A DNA stretch of 64,000 bases from Candidatus Gastranaerophilales bacterium. Its GTDB lineage: Bacteria; Cyanobacteriota; Vampirovibrionia; Gastranaerophilales; Gastranaerophilaceae. Under the pieces are notes generated by a model, which searched no databases, had not been told where the DNA came from, and worked only from the letters and a program-made list of their open reading frames with translations. Positions 2,511 to 56,389 of the stretch are shown piece by piece. Numbering within the stretch: position 1 is the first letter of the stretch; the number at the start of each line of letters is the position of its first letter. Location: the NCBI GenBank assembly GCA_944323615.1, contig CALUTG010000002.1:1-64000 (forward strand), read 5' to 3'. Both the position numbers and the translations under genes were made by a program.

Positions 2511-5500
2511 TTATATTTCACCTAGTGTTGTAGATGTTTCAAAGAAGTTAATATTTAACAACTCTGAATCAATATCTGATAAAGTTCTTTTTGGAGCAGA
2601 TTTTCTCAAATCGTCCATATCGCTCATCAGATCAACTTCAACACCATTCTTCTTCGCAACTGTAATATCAAGTCCGATACTTTGCAATTCTCTTACAAGT
2701 ACCTTGAATGATTCCGGAATACCAGGTCTAGGGATATTATCCCCCTTAACGATAGCTTCATAAGCTCTGTTTCTTCCGTTAACATCGTCTGACTTAATAG
2801 TTAACATTTCTTGAAGAGTATAAGCCGCACCGTATGCTTCAAGTGCCCATACTTCCATTTCCCCGAATCTTTGTCCGCCGAACTGAGCTTTACCGCCTAA
2901 TGGCTGTTGTGTAACAAGTGAGTACGGACCTGTTGAACGAGCGTGGATCTTGTCGTCAACAAGGTGGACAAGTTTAAGGATATATGATAGACCAACTGCA
3001 ATAGGCTCATCAAACGGTTCACCGGTTCTACCGTCAATTAAGTATACCTTACCGTCTTCTCTTACCCAATCACAGCCGGATTCTTTAATACCTCTTAAAA
3101 GTTCCGCCTTAGTAGCGATTTCTGACTGGTTATCACCATATCTTTCATCAAAAGCCGGCGCTTCGTAGTGTTCTTTTGTAAGATAAGCTGCCAAACCTAA
3201 TAAGCATTCATAAGTTTGACCAACGTTCATACGGGAAGGAACACCAAGAGGGTTCAATACTATATCAACAGGAGTTCCGTCAGGAAGGAACGGCATATCT
3301 TCTTTAGGAAGAATTCTTGATACAATACCTTTGTTACCGTGACGTCCTGAAAGTTTGTCACCTACTGATACTTTACGTTTTTGAGCTATATAAACTCTGA
3401 TTACAGTATTAGCTCCAGGAGGAAGTTCATCACCTTTTTCTCTGTCGAATACCTTAACATCAAGTACTCTTCCGCCTTCACCATGAGGAACTCTCAAAGA
3501 GTTATCTTTAACATCTCTTGCTTTTTCAGCAAAGATAGCTCTTAAAAGTTTTTCTTCAGGCGGATGTTCAGATTCACCTTTTGGTGTAACTTTACCTACC
3601 AATATATCGTCAGCATAAACTCTTGCCCCGATACGAACAATACCTCTTTCATCCAAGTGTCTCAAAGCTTCTTCTGAAACGTTCGGAATTTCTCTGGTAA
3701 TTTCTTCAGGTCCGAGTTTAGTCTGTCTTGCATCTATTTCTAATTTTTCAATGTGAACTGATGTGAAGATATCATCATGAACACATCTTTCAGATAACAG
3801 GATAGCATCTTCGAAGTTATATCCTTCCCAAGGCATATAAGCAACAAGGATGTTTTTACCGATTGAAAGTTCGCCGCAGCTAGTCGAAGCACCGTCTGCA
3901 ATTACATCCCCTGCTTTAACCTTATCACCTTCATTAACGATAGGTTTTTGGTTAATACATGTATCCTGGTTAGAACGAACATATTTCATTAATGTATGCA
4001 GATGCTGCTTTCCGCTTAAATCTGTAATAACGATTTCTTCACCGGTTACACGGGAAACGACACCGTCAACTTTAGCGCAAACTACCATACCTGAGTCTTT
4101 TGCAACTCTTCTTTCCATACCTGTACCGACAACCGGTCTTTCAGTAATAAGAAGAGGTACTGATTGACGCTGCATGTTTGAACCCATCAATGCACGGTTA
4201 GCATCATCGTGCTCAATAAACGGAATCATTGATGTTGCAACAGAGATAATCTGAATCGGGCAAACACCTACATAGTCAACTTTTGAAGATTCGCACATTG
4301 TGAACTCAGATCTGTAACGAACAGGAACCTGAGCGGACTTAAATGTACCGTCAGCATTCAACTGAACGTCAGCCGGAGCACAACGATAGTTTTCATCTTC
4401 GTCAGCTGTCATATAAACAACTTCATCCGTAACTTTTCCGTCTTTTACAACGAAGAACGGAGATTCAATAAATCCATAATCATTAACTCTTGCGTGAGTA
4501 GCTAATGAACCGATCAAACCTGCGTTTGGACCTTCAGGAGTTTCAATAGGACAAATACGTCCGTAGTGAGAAGGGTGGATATCACGAACTGCGAAACCGG
4601 CTCTTTCTCTCTGTAAACCGCCAGGCCCTAAAGCTGAAATACGTCTTTTGTGAGTCAATTCAGCAAGAGGGTTAATCTGATCCATGAACTGTGACAATTG
4701 TGAACTTCCGAAGAATTCCTTCAATGAAGCTACAAGAGGTTTAGTATTTAATAAGTTCAAAGGAGTTAAAGTTTCAGAATCCTGAAGTGTCATTCTTTCT
4801 TTAACAATTCTTTCGATTCTTGAAAGACCGACTCTGAATTGGTTTTGAAGAAGTTCACCAACTGAACGTATTCTTCTGTTTCCTAAGTGGTCAATATCAT
4901 CCAATGAACCTTCGTCATAAGTTAAGTTAATTAAGTATTCAATTGAAGCTACGATATCCTGAACAGTCAAAGTTCTTGTGCTGTTAGGAATATTTAAGTT
5001 CAATTTTTTATTTAATTTATAACGACCTACACGACCGATATCATATTTCTTATCGTCAAAGAATCTTGATTCAAGAATCTGACGTCCGCCTTGAGCAGAA
5101 GCAGGATCACCCGGTCTCAGTTTTTTGTATAAGTCAATTAAAGCATCATCTGTTGTTTCTGTAGTATCTTTATCCAATGTTTTCTTTAAGAATTCAAAGT
5201 GAGTGAATAAAGATTCCATTTCAGAAACGGTAATACCCATTGCTTTCAATAATGTAGTAGCAAGGATCTTTCTGTTTTTATCAATCTTAACGTAAATTAA
5301 ATCGTTAGAATCTGTTTCAATCTTCAACCATGCCCCGCGGTTAGGAATCATAGTTGCGTTATAAAGTCTCTTACCTGTAGGAGAGATTTCTCTTTTAAAA
5401 TAAACGCCAGGGGAACGTACGATTTGAGAAACAATAACACGTTCAGCACCGTTTACAATGAAAGTACCTTTATCAGTCATTGTAGGAATATCGCCAATGT

Positions 5501-5825
5501 AAACTTCCTGTTCTTTAATTTCACCGCTGTCACGGTTAACAAGCCTTACCATAACACGAAGCTGTTTCGCATAAGTCGCATCATGAATACGGGCTTCTTC
5601 AACAGTGTATTTTGCATTATCAAATGTGTAATTCGGTAAGAAATGAAGCTCTAACCTGCCTGTATAATCTTTAACAGGGGAAAATGCAAGAAGCTCTTCT
5701 TTCAAACCTTCTTTTAAAAACCATTCAAATGATTTTTTTTGCACGTCAATTAAATCCGGTAAATCATCCAGACGAGTATTAGGAATACCCATTGGAGTTA
5801 CTCTTTTTGCATATTTTGTCGACAT
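2511..5825 (-). CDS. rpoB: RNA polymerase beta subunit
   Basis: The protein is 1104 residues, the length expected for a beta subunit without large lineage insertions. Conserved blocks include the rifampicin-pocket region ([18 protein letters not shown]), [14 protein letters not shown], the [12 protein letters not shown] block and the C-terminal [23 protein letters not shown]. The ATG at 5825 has GAGGTG eight bases upstream. The gene is first in rpoB-rpoC1-rpoC2 and is not preceded by rplJ-rplL; purB lies 195 bases upstream on the same strand. That gap holds candidate promoter elements and a perfect HLR1-type operator (separate entries). Confidence 0.98.
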
Positions 5826-5933: not shown

Positions 5934-5961
5934 ATCGTACAACATCAATATAGCTAGTCAA
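5934..5961 (-). promoter_or_regulatory. Candidate rpoB promoter
   Basis: Read on the minus strand, TTGACT (5961-5956) is followed after 16 bases by TACGAT (5939-5934), a plausible sigma-70 type -35/-10 pair. It would give a 5' leader of about 100 bases before rpoB. A second candidate -10, TTATAC at 5977-5972, lies about 24 bases downstream of the HLR1 site and would put that site around -36 to -53. The sequence alone does not decide between them. Confidence 0.35.
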
Positions 5962-6000: not shown

Positions 6001-6018
6001 TTTACAAAAATTTACAAA
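6001..6018 (+). promoter_or_regulatory. HLR1-type operator (putative RpaB site) upstream of rpoB
   Basis: The 18-mer TTTACAAAAATTTACAAA fits the cyanobacterial HLR1 consensus (G/T)TTACA(T/A)(T/A)NN(G/T)TTACA(T/A)(T/A) at every defined position, with the 10-base spacing of the two half sites. It lies between the purB stop and the rpoB start. RpaB binding is inference; no rpaB gene is in this window. Confidence 0.55.
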
Positions 6019-6020
6019 TT

Positions 6021-7304
6021 TTAATAATTAAATCTCTCAAACACTTTATCTATGTTATTAAGATAAGCTTCAACATTGAAACATTCATCCAGTTCAGACG
6101 GGGTTAATATATTTTCACTCTCAAGACCTTTTCTGAAATCTCCGCCGCTTAAAGCATTAAGGGCGTGTTTTTGAACAATTCTATAAGCATCTTCTCTTGT
6201 AAAACCTTTTTCTTCAACAAGTTTAAGAAGAACTTTCTGAGAACAAACGACTCCGCCGTATAATTGTGTATTTTTTAACATATTATCTTCATGCACAACG
6301 AGGTTTGCCATTACCCCCTTGAATCGGTGAAGCATAAAATCAATTAAAATTAAAGAATCAGGAAAAATAATTCTTTCCGCTGATGAGTGGGAAATATCTC
6401 GTTCGTGCCAGAGATTAATATTTTCAAAAGCCGCAATCATATTGGAACGTATAACACGCGCTAAACCGCATAAATTTTCACATAATACGGGATTCTTTTT
6501 ATGAGGCATAGCGGAAGATCCCTTTTGATTTGCAGTAAAACCTTCTTCAACTTCTCTTACTTCAGTCCTTGAAAGATGGCGGATTTCCGTGGCATATTTT
6601 TCAATTAAAGACGAGATAACAGCTAACTCGGAGAAAAATTTAGCGTGCCTGTCTCTGGAAATAATCTGGGTAGAAATTCTTGCAGGTCTTAGACCTAACT
6701 CTTTGCAAGCTATTTCTTCTATTTCAACCGGCAGATTGCTGTATGTACCAACGGGGCCTGAAATCTGTCCTACAGAGACTTCTGCGAGGGCAAATTCAAA
6801 ACTCTTTTTAGCCCTTTCAAGTTCATCAAGCCAGTTTAAGAGCTTAAAGCCGAAAGTTGTTACTTCTGCATGAACTCCATGCGAGCGGCCTATACAAATT
6901 GTATTTTTATATTTAAAAGCCATCTGTTTTATTTCAGATATTAAGTCATCCAAATCATTTAGAATTATTTTGGAACTGTCTTTTATTTGCAAAGCAAAAG
7001 CGGTATCAATAACATCGGAACTTGTTAATCCCATATGAATATATCTCGCATTTTCAGAGCCTACTGATTCATTTACTGCAGTTAAAAAAGCAATGACATC
7101 GTGCTTAACTTCACGTTCAATTTCATCAATTCTTTCTACTGAAAAAGAGGCTTTTTTCTTTATCTCTTCAAGTGCCTCTAACGGGATCATTCCAAGAGTT
7201 CTGTATGCTTCACAGACAGCAAGTTCAACTCTTAAGTAATAATCAAACTTGGACTCTAGATCCCAAATTCGCTTAATTTCTTCTCGTGAATATCTTTCAA
7301 TCAT
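6021..7304 (-). CDS. purB: Adenylosuccinate lyase
   Basis: The enzyme catalyses two fumarate-releasing steps of purine synthesis: SAICAR to AICAR, and adenylosuccinate to AMP. It has 427 residues, normal for the short bacterial form. The fumarase/aspartase superfamily signature appears as SSAMPHKKNPV, and the substrate-binding segments TSSDVIDTA and GRSHGVHAEV are present. The ATG at 7304 has no Shine-Dalgarno; a TATAAT at 7317-7312 is placed so that transcription would begin about one base before the start codon. No terminator is visible after the stop, so read-through towards rpoB is possible. Confidence 0.95.
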   Translation of the reverse strand: MIERYSREEIKRIWDLESKFDYYLRVELAVCEAYRTLGMIPLEALEEIKKKASFSVERIDEIEREVKHDVIAFLTAVNESVGSENARYIHMGLTSSDVIDTAFALQIKDSSKIILNDLDDLISEIKQMAFKYKNTICIGRSHGVHAEVTTFGFKLLNWLDELERAKKSFEFALAEVSVGQISGPVGTYSNLPVEIEEIACKELGLRPARISTQIISRDRHAKFFSELAVISSLIEKYATEIRHLSRTEVREVEEGFTANQKGSSAMPHKKNPVLCENLCGLARVIRSNMIAAFENINLWHERDISHSSAERIIFPDSLILIDFMLHRFKGVMANLVVHEDNMLKNTQLYGGVVCSQKVLLKLVEEKGFTREDAYRIVQKHALNALSGGDFRKGLESENILTPSELDECFNVEAYLNNIDKVFERFNY

Positions 7305-49810: not shown

Positions 49811-50368
49811 TTATACGTAGTCGTCAGGGTTACCTGAATAGTCCTGAATCATGCCTTCTGAATCCGTGTCAGCAGCCACACCGGAATACTCATGAACAGA
49901 GGATCTATATGCAAGAGCTCGTTTATTTAGCTCATCCATTGCCATAGGACCTGTCAAAACTTCAATAACTTCTCCGTTTGAATCATATAATTTTAGACGG
50001 GGAATTTCAACACCTTGAGGAGTTTTATATCCCATTAGAGACATCGGACCATATTCGCCAAACCCGTCTTTCATCTCGTAATACAATTCTTTAAGGTTTT
50101 CGTTATCAAGGCAGCTTATTGCGACATTGTTACTGGTTTCTCTCTGAACCCAATCCTGAACGGTCTGGGTTTCGTCAAGCAGCTCCGCTAATTGTTCCGA
50201 AGTCGCTTTAATATTGACAAACAATGAGTCTCCCCCTTTACCTACGGCTGTAGGGCCTTTTTCTTTTGACCTGAACACCCTGTAATTTGCTTCGTCAATA
50301 ACCTTTTTTTCACCGGGATCCTGATTGTCATTATTTAAACTTTTTTCAACGTGAAATTCTTCAGCCAT
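49811..50368 (-). CDS. Acidic soluble protein, unknown function
   Basis: The protein has 185 residues from the ATG at 50368, with AAGGAG upstream; a longer frame to 50455 has no such site and would run into the operator region. It is soluble and acidic, with a central beta-rich part (DSLFVNIKATSEQLAELLDE, GYKTPQGVEIPRLKLYDSNGEVIEVL) and an acidic C terminus ending in DDYV. No family is recognised. It is divergent from rnpA, and a perfect HLR1-type site lies in the shared upstream region. Confidence 0.7.
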   Translation of the reverse strand: MAEEFHVEKSLNNDNQDPGEKKVIDEANYRVFRSKEKGPTAVGKGGDSLFVNIKATSEQLAELLDETQTVQDWVQRETSNNVAISCLDNENLKELYYEMKDGFGEYGPMSLMGYKTPQGVEIPRLKLYDSNGEVIEVLTGPMAMDELNKRALAYRSSVHEYSGVAADTDSEGMIQDYSGNPDDYV

Positions 50369-50434
50369 AGTTTTACTCCTTATATTTTGATTTACGGCAC
50401 AAAATAAGGAATCTTTAATGTTTTGAGATAAATA

Positions 50435-50452
50435 TTTACAAATATTTACATA
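50435..50452 (+). promoter_or_regulatory. HLR1-type operator between rnpA and the divergent unknown gene
   Basis: TTTACAAATATTTACATA matches every defined position of the cyanobacterial HLR1 consensus, with half sites 10 bases apart. It lies 66 bases before the rnpA ATG and 66 bases before the divergent gene's ATG, so it could act on either. The binding factor is inferred. Confidence 0.55.
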
Positions 50453-50518
50453 CATTATCTGAAGATGAAAAAAACCTAAAAACTGTACAATTAAAACAAT
50501 GTATTATATCATTAAACT

Positions 50519-56085: not shown

Positions 56086-56313
56086 TTATTTAATATCAGG
56101 AACGCATATAACACCGATTGCTACGCCGTAAACTACAGCTTGAACTTTATTATGAACGGACCATTTCTCATAAATACTTTCAATATGTTTCTTGATTGTA
56201 GTTACGGAAACACACAGTTTTTCAGCAATCTCTTTATTAATGAATCCTTCCGCAATTAATTCCAGAACTTCTACTTCTCTTTTTGTTAAATTTTTATCTT
56301 GTAAATCCATCAT
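56086..56313 (-). CDS. Stand-alone LuxR/GerE-type helix-turn-helix regulator
   Basis: The protein of 75 residues is nothing but a LuxR C-terminal DNA-binding domain: LTKREVEVLELIAEGFINKEI, then CVSVTTIKKHIESIYEKW and NKVQAVVYGVA. No receiver or ligand domain is attached, similar in size to GerE of Bacillus. It seems leaderless (TATGAT at 56325-56320, ATG at 56313, no Shine-Dalgarno). A perfect HLR1-type site lies 59-76 bases upstream, so it may be a relay regulator under RpaB-like control. Confidence 0.85.
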   Translation of the reverse strand: MMDLQDKNLTKREVEVLELIAEGFINKEIAEKLCVSVTTIKKHIESIYEKWSVHNKVQAVVYGVAIGVICVPDIK

Positions 56314-56319
56314 ATTACT

Positions 56320-56325
56320 ATCATA
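56320..56325 (-). promoter_or_regulatory. -10 element placed for a leaderless LuxR-type mRNA
   Basis: TATGAT on the minus strand ends seven bases before the A of the ATG at 56313. The -35 position is poor (AAAGAA), as expected for an activator-dependent promoter. Confidence 0.5.
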
Positions 56326-56371: not shown

Positions 56372-56389
56372 TTTACAAAAATTTACAAT
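56372..56389 (+). promoter_or_regulatory. HLR1-type operator upstream of the LuxR-type regulator
   Basis: TTTACAAAAATTTACAAT matches every defined position of the HLR1 consensus. It is centred near -68 relative to the predicted start of the regulator gene on the minus strand. The first 15 bases are identical to the rpoB site. Confidence 0.55.

Follow-up and report, generated by a model that had tools for sequence, protein, structure and literature searches.

Perfect HLR1 repeats in a non-photosynthetic relative of the cyanobacteria are probable operators of an RpaB orthologue

RpaB is central to the regulation of photosynthesis in cyanobacteria, and HLR1 is the DNA switch through which they respond to strong light. 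In photosynthetic members of the phylum its operator, HLR1, mediates activation when it is placed at -66 to -45 and repression when it lies over the transcription start (PMC13421787). Passages in Di Rienzi et al. 2013 (PMC3787301) report homologues of RpaA, RpaB and NblS in Melainabacteria and consider that these may have another function, and homologues of the same three proteins are also reported in Soo et al. 2014 (PMC4040986). A literature search on HLR1 together with Melainabacteria yielded one incidental review, and we encountered no description of an HLR1 regulon in this group.

The DNA analysed here (the window) is a stretch of 64,000 nucleotides from a Candidatus Gastranaerophilales bacterium. 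It was searched with the HLR1 pattern KTTACAWW-NN-KTTACAWW, 18 bases long and with every defined position required. Exact matches to KTTACAWWNNKTTACAWW were found at 6001-6018, where the sequence reads TTTACAAAAATTTACAAA, at 50435-50452 and at 56372-56389, each on the + strand. All three are intergenic when sensible start codons are assigned; the open reading frame 49811-50455 runs into the second site merely through over-extension of its start, the likely ATG being at 50368. In 400 dinucleotide shuffles of the window the mean number of matches was 0.0175 and the maximum 1, and none of 562 permuted half-site consensuses (mean 0.06 matches) reached three. When the spacing between TTACA half-sites was varied from 0 to 15, N5 gave three matches in the window and every other spacing none or one. 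The sequence-only reading of this DNA had named three perfect, intergenic copies at these positions and had put the chance expectation well below 0.1; the observation is confirmed on each of these points. A pattern taken first, TTNACA-N5-TTNACA (11-bp period), differs from HLR1 and gave a weak excess only. In Rfam scans of the loci with HLR1 sites, tRNAs were the sole RNA families found.

The whole genome (Gastranaerophilales; 1,926,808 bases, 1.93 Mb, in 90 contigs) was searched for the genome-wide counts and contains 35 exact HLR1 sites, of which 17 are forward and 18 reverse; the reversed pattern, taken as control, occurs 4 times. According to open reading frame maps drawn for all 35 loci, the repeats lie between genes, inside spurious short reading frames or near a predicted gene end, and nearly all are intergenic. 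Chance matches in A+T-rich intergenic DNA might be suspected, as the motif is itself A+T-rich and the window has 35% G+C, but this explanation is already refuted by the HLR1 counts, with 3 copies observed where 0.0175 are expected and 35 against 4 in the genome, and the fixed spacing between HLR1 and promoters described below also speaks against it.

Exact HLR1 was also compared with a control pattern across 60 genomes of the class. In the organism's own family all 13 genomes contain HLR1, and the summed count is 270 versus 48 in the control. A smaller excess is present in families f8, f9 and f3, and almost no exact HLR1 occurs in families f2, f4, f5, f6 and f7. HLR1 is enriched upstream of genes both in the genome and across the family. 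Photosynthetic genomes hold 1-16 sites versus 0-2 in the control, and as a positive control the strict pattern finds in them genes of the psbA and hli types, names that we assigned by reading the N-termini. A target list common to distant Vampirovibrionia (f3, f8 and f9) and this genome was sought and none was found.

Three OmpR-type DNA-binding proteins are encoded in the genome. One of them (L036, 261 aa) is RpaB according to the NCBIfam equivalog NF045944 (353.1 bits, cut-off 330), which supplies the orthologue that the sequence-only reading had proposed to look for. Its recognition helix, DTRVVDVHISRLR, is identical to that in photosynthetic cyanobacteria, its wHTH shares 71-74% identity with that of photosynthetic RpaB, and the protein groups with RpaB of the phylum, apart from the RpaA-like and the third OmpR protein. 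The closest named records with an RpaB of this type, 82-95% identical, are from Candidatus Gastranaerophilales of rumen and gut, in agreement with the earlier view that the host is a non-photosynthetic relative of cyanobacteria. It is unlikely that the repeats are bound by one of the other two proteins, the RpaA-like L038 or the PhoB/MtrA-like L037, with no involvement of RpaB. Both are present in the genome, and their family recognises direct repeats spaced about 10-11 bp; on the other hand, their wHTH identity is only 31-33%, the recognition helix of the known HLR1 readers is found in RpaB only, and the repeat spacing is strictly that of HLR1. We consider instead that the three window sites are operators of the RpaB orthologue and belong to a regulon with 35 or more perfect sites, a reading to which, together with the mode of action proposed below, we give a probability of roughly 0.78.

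The kinase is less easily assigned. For L070 the best NCBIfam family is NblS, yet the score of 324 bits is far under the cut-off of 1000. In each of the ten photosynthetic genomes tested L070 has one match, with 34-38% identity. The NblS-like sensor thus appears to be diverged or not assignable to NblS.

RpaB was detected at E 1e-60 in the sampled genomes of families f2, f6 and f7, and was not found at this threshold in those of f4 and f5 (G003, G009, G015, G005, G011 and G017), so that a regulator central to photosynthetic cyanobacteria has apparently been lost there or has diverged strongly. A joint loss of RpaB and HLR1 in f4 and f5 was considered as a clean test of their connection and rejected, because RpaB is retained in f2, f6 and f7, where exact HLR1 is almost absent; the pattern in f4 and f5 is only suggestive, and a conserved RpaB is no guarantee of an HLR1 regulon. 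Family f6 (L292, L293 and L294), which has almost no exact HLR1, encodes a second RpaB-like protein with 46-48% identity besides RpaB.

Of 137 HLR1 sites classified in the family, 52 have a gene on the opposite strand only and 25 on the same strand only, and for the opposite orientation the most frequent distances to the start codon are 74-91 bp. Flanking sequences, including 168 reverse flanks, were analysed in eight genomes of the family and in six from distant lineages. A sigma28 promoter, TAAAGTTT-N11/12-GCCGATAA, follows HLR1 after 16-19 bp in 23 of these (class A), and no forward flank carries the box at that position. A different box, GMAATT...TATACTTTATATA, follows after 32-36 bp in 27 of the 168 (class B). 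The score thresholds for classes A and B were met 498 and 213 times, respectively, in 1.2 million positions over all loci. Judged by orientation and promoter position, each HLR1 site in the window most likely acts on the opposite-strand gene. Many exact HLR1 sites of this genome match neither class. A class B-like element, GMAATT...TATACTTTATATATATAAGAGAG, was seen 32-36 bp past HLR1 at L022 and L018 and, in relatives, at L115, L136, L148, L156, L185, L190 and L210. Downstream of HLR1, perfect tandem repeats with 5-bp units (TCATA, ACCAT and variants of these) occur at L016:1435-1460, L195:3152-3173, L015 and L164; the units differ between genomes and could represent a phase-variable leader.

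The association was also examined in reverse, starting from the promoters. The genome contains 17 promoters of the sigma28 consensus with N11 spacing (4 exact and 13 with one mismatch), and, with up to two mismatches allowed, 14 of them are preceded by an HLR1 whose end lies exactly 17 bp away; this HLR1 is perfect in 6 cases, has one mismatch in 5 and two in 3. At all other gaps from the 17 promoters HLR1 was found at 8 of 3383 positions (0.24%). One more of the sigma28 promoters, at L306, has HLR1 at a gap of 28, about one helical turn further upstream than 17. A FliA-type sigma factor is encoded (TIGR02479, 228.4 bits, cut-off 189.6). Loci sampled from other families of Vampirovibrionia, f3, f8 and f9 included, showed no sigma28 coupling of HLR1. 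If transcription is taken to start about 7 bp past the -10 box, the class A operator would span roughly -69 to -52, close to the known activator position of RpaB, and in both classes HLR1 would be placed about 50-70 bp upstream of the predicted transcription start.

The fixed 17-bp gap could also arise if the direct repeat belonged to an extended or UP-like promoter element that the sigma28-type polymerase recognises on its own, RpaB being uninvolved. We regard this as highly improbable, since the repeat is also found at another fixed distance from a second promoter box and lies upstream of the TTGACT...TACGAT promoter at rpoB, every one of its positions fits the known RpaB operator, and it is enriched in photosynthetic genomes too. 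An RpaB operator remains the preferred identity of the repeat.

The exact match at 50435-50452 (+ strand) is the HLR1 of a composite HLR1-N17-sigma28 element of class A. The sigma28-like promoter TAAAGATT-N11-GCCGTAAA, with three mismatches to the consensus, is found on the - strand at 50391-50417, exactly 17 bp past the repeat, and the site most likely belongs to the leftward open reading frame at 49811-50368 (- strand, 185 aa, no Pfam match), not to rnpA. The genes rnpA, gyrB (L017) and MatE (L002) had been taken first as targets, and each time the orientation of HLR1 indicates the divergent neighbour. The perfect HLR1 at 56372-56389 (+ strand) is 58 bp upstream of a small GerE (LuxR-type HTH) gene at 56086-56313 (- strand, 75 aa; PF00196, 2e-19), which is most likely the gene it belongs to. 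A possible -10 box, TATGAT, was read at 56319-56324 (- strand), with no clear -35 box. The encoded protein consists of the GerE HTH domain and nothing else, and similar small GerE proteins are found beside HLR1 in three other genomes (G022, G058 and G055).

The remaining window site, at 6001-6018, is an exact match on the + strand and lies in reverse orientation relative to a - strand open reading frame at 2511-5825, downstream of it, which we take to be rpoB (RNA polymerase beta subunit) from reading its N-terminus; orthologues in relatives are 84-99% identical across the first 100 aa. On the opposite flank, the stop codon of an adenylosuccinate lyase-like gene (6021-7304, - strand; PF00206, PF10397) is 3 bp from HLR1. 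Between the repeat and rpoB we read a likely -35 box, TTGACT, at 5956-5961, 39 bp downstream of HLR1, and after a 16-bp spacer a likely -10 box, TACGAT, at 5934-5939 (both - strand), and related genomes likewise have TTGAC...TACGAT in front of rpoB. HLR1 is 175 bp from the rpoB start codon and, by the predicted promoter, would occupy roughly -91 to -74, slightly outside the -66 to -45 interval.

Among 28 genomes of the family in which the upstream sequence is complete, six have a perfect HLR1 upstream of rpoB. In five of them (G000, G136, G140, G124 and G129), which include members of different genera, the repeat is 167-203 bp upstream of rpoB, always reversed and above TTGAC...TACGAT; in the sixth (G144) it is 293 bp upstream and in the other orientation. 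Three further genomes have a good HLR1 with one mismatch, and the remainder a weak match or none. None of 560 shuffles of this comparison reached such scores. The claim that RNA polymerase synthesis is controlled through this site is weak: the site is well placed above a conserved promoter, yet no more than 6 of the 28 genomes show a strong match, and HLR1/RpaB control of RNA polymerase synthesis is best regarded as tentative. RpaB might use HLR1 genome-wide while the 6001 site plays no part in rpoB expression, a possibility that we rate as appreciable though below even odds. The scarcity of strong matches in relatives, the varying distance between HLR1 and promoter and the 175 bp to the start codon agree with it, whereas the recurrence of a perfect, reversed repeat above the same promoter in different genera, at scores absent from all shuffles, does not. 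Taken together, the 6001 site is probably real and functional here, as a lineage-variable element and no conserved feature of the family.

The proteins encoded behind class A promoters mostly lack a Pfam match, the exceptions being EF-hand (weak), LysM and GAF/HD-GYP. Ten sigma28-like targets were scanned and no flagellar Pfam domain was found; one has GAF/HD-GYP. Families related to photosynthesis or high light were absent among the annotated genes flanking HLR1. Homologous targets in relatives keep HLR1 at the same distance, as exemplified by a gene for a 640-aa protein divergent from one for a 56-aa protein, for which the distance is kept in seven genomes. Genes that we recognised from their N-termini as presumably infC and glnA also lie beside HLR1 in relatives. 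Most of the probable targets are uncharacterised, lineage-specific proteins rather than growth genes.

We propose that an NblS-like kinase probably controls phosphorylation of RpaB, and that phosphorylated RpaB would bind HLR1 and, in most cases, activate transcription from upstream. The usual layout has HLR1 running against the gene and ending exactly 17 bp above a sigma28-type TAAAGTTT-N11-GCCGATAA promoter, and in the alternative one it lies about 32-36 bp above a GMAATT...TATACTTTATATA box. At rpoB it would be an upstream operator, likely real, on a housekeeping-type promoter. An RpaB regulon without photosynthesis is well supported at the level of sequence by the orthologue with its identical helix and by the enrichment of HLR1 in genome and family, in line with this part of the sequence-only reading, and RpaB appears to have an old function unrelated to light. 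Its further suggestion, that the ancestral role of RpaB was in growth or stress, was not supported: in this genome HLR1 is coupled mainly to sigma28-type and one other alternative-sigma-like promoter of lineage-specific proteins, and the loci sampled in other families of Vampirovibrionia did not show this coupling. The motif and recognition helix are common to this family and photosynthetic cyanobacteria, which suggests that the HLR1 code predates their split. A more far-reaching scheme, in which RpaB of Gastranaerophilaceae co-activates the sigma28 polymerase and a second alternative sigma to drive a programme of surface or secreted proteins, HLR1 predates photosynthesis, and control by light is a re-use, is speculative and, as a whole, rather unlikely.

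With the sigma28 (FliA/SigD) promoters of flagellated bacteria the system shares the TAAAGTTT-N11-GCCGATAA consensus and a FliA gene. It differs in that most of the best promoters here carry a dedicated upstream activator-type operator, and in that the targets examined are without flagellar Pfam domains. To our knowledge, such an operator is not usual at sigma28 promoters. The papers on Melainabacteria homologues (PMC3787301, PMC4040986, PMC5877343) deal with these proteins in the group studied here; in the relevant passages they describe genes, and no operator, regulon or promoter architecture. The function of RpaB in the non-photosynthetic sisters has been a question since 2013, and its operator can now be read directly, so that candidate targets can be listed and a testable promoter rule stated (HLR1, 17 bp, sigma28 box). 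Compared with RpaB-HLR1 of photosynthetic cyanobacteria (PMC13421787), the regulator family, the identical recognition helix and the 18-bp consensus are shared, and by the predicted promoters the class A and class B operators would lie close to where RpaB activates. In contrast, no photosynthesis genes are among the annotated targets here, which are mostly lineage-specific, the repeat is reversed and at fixed spacing to a sigma28-type and a second type of promoter, and the kinase appears to have diverged. A DNA-binding code common to the phylum is thereby separated from a light input that is not, and the role of RpaB before photosynthesis becomes a testable question.
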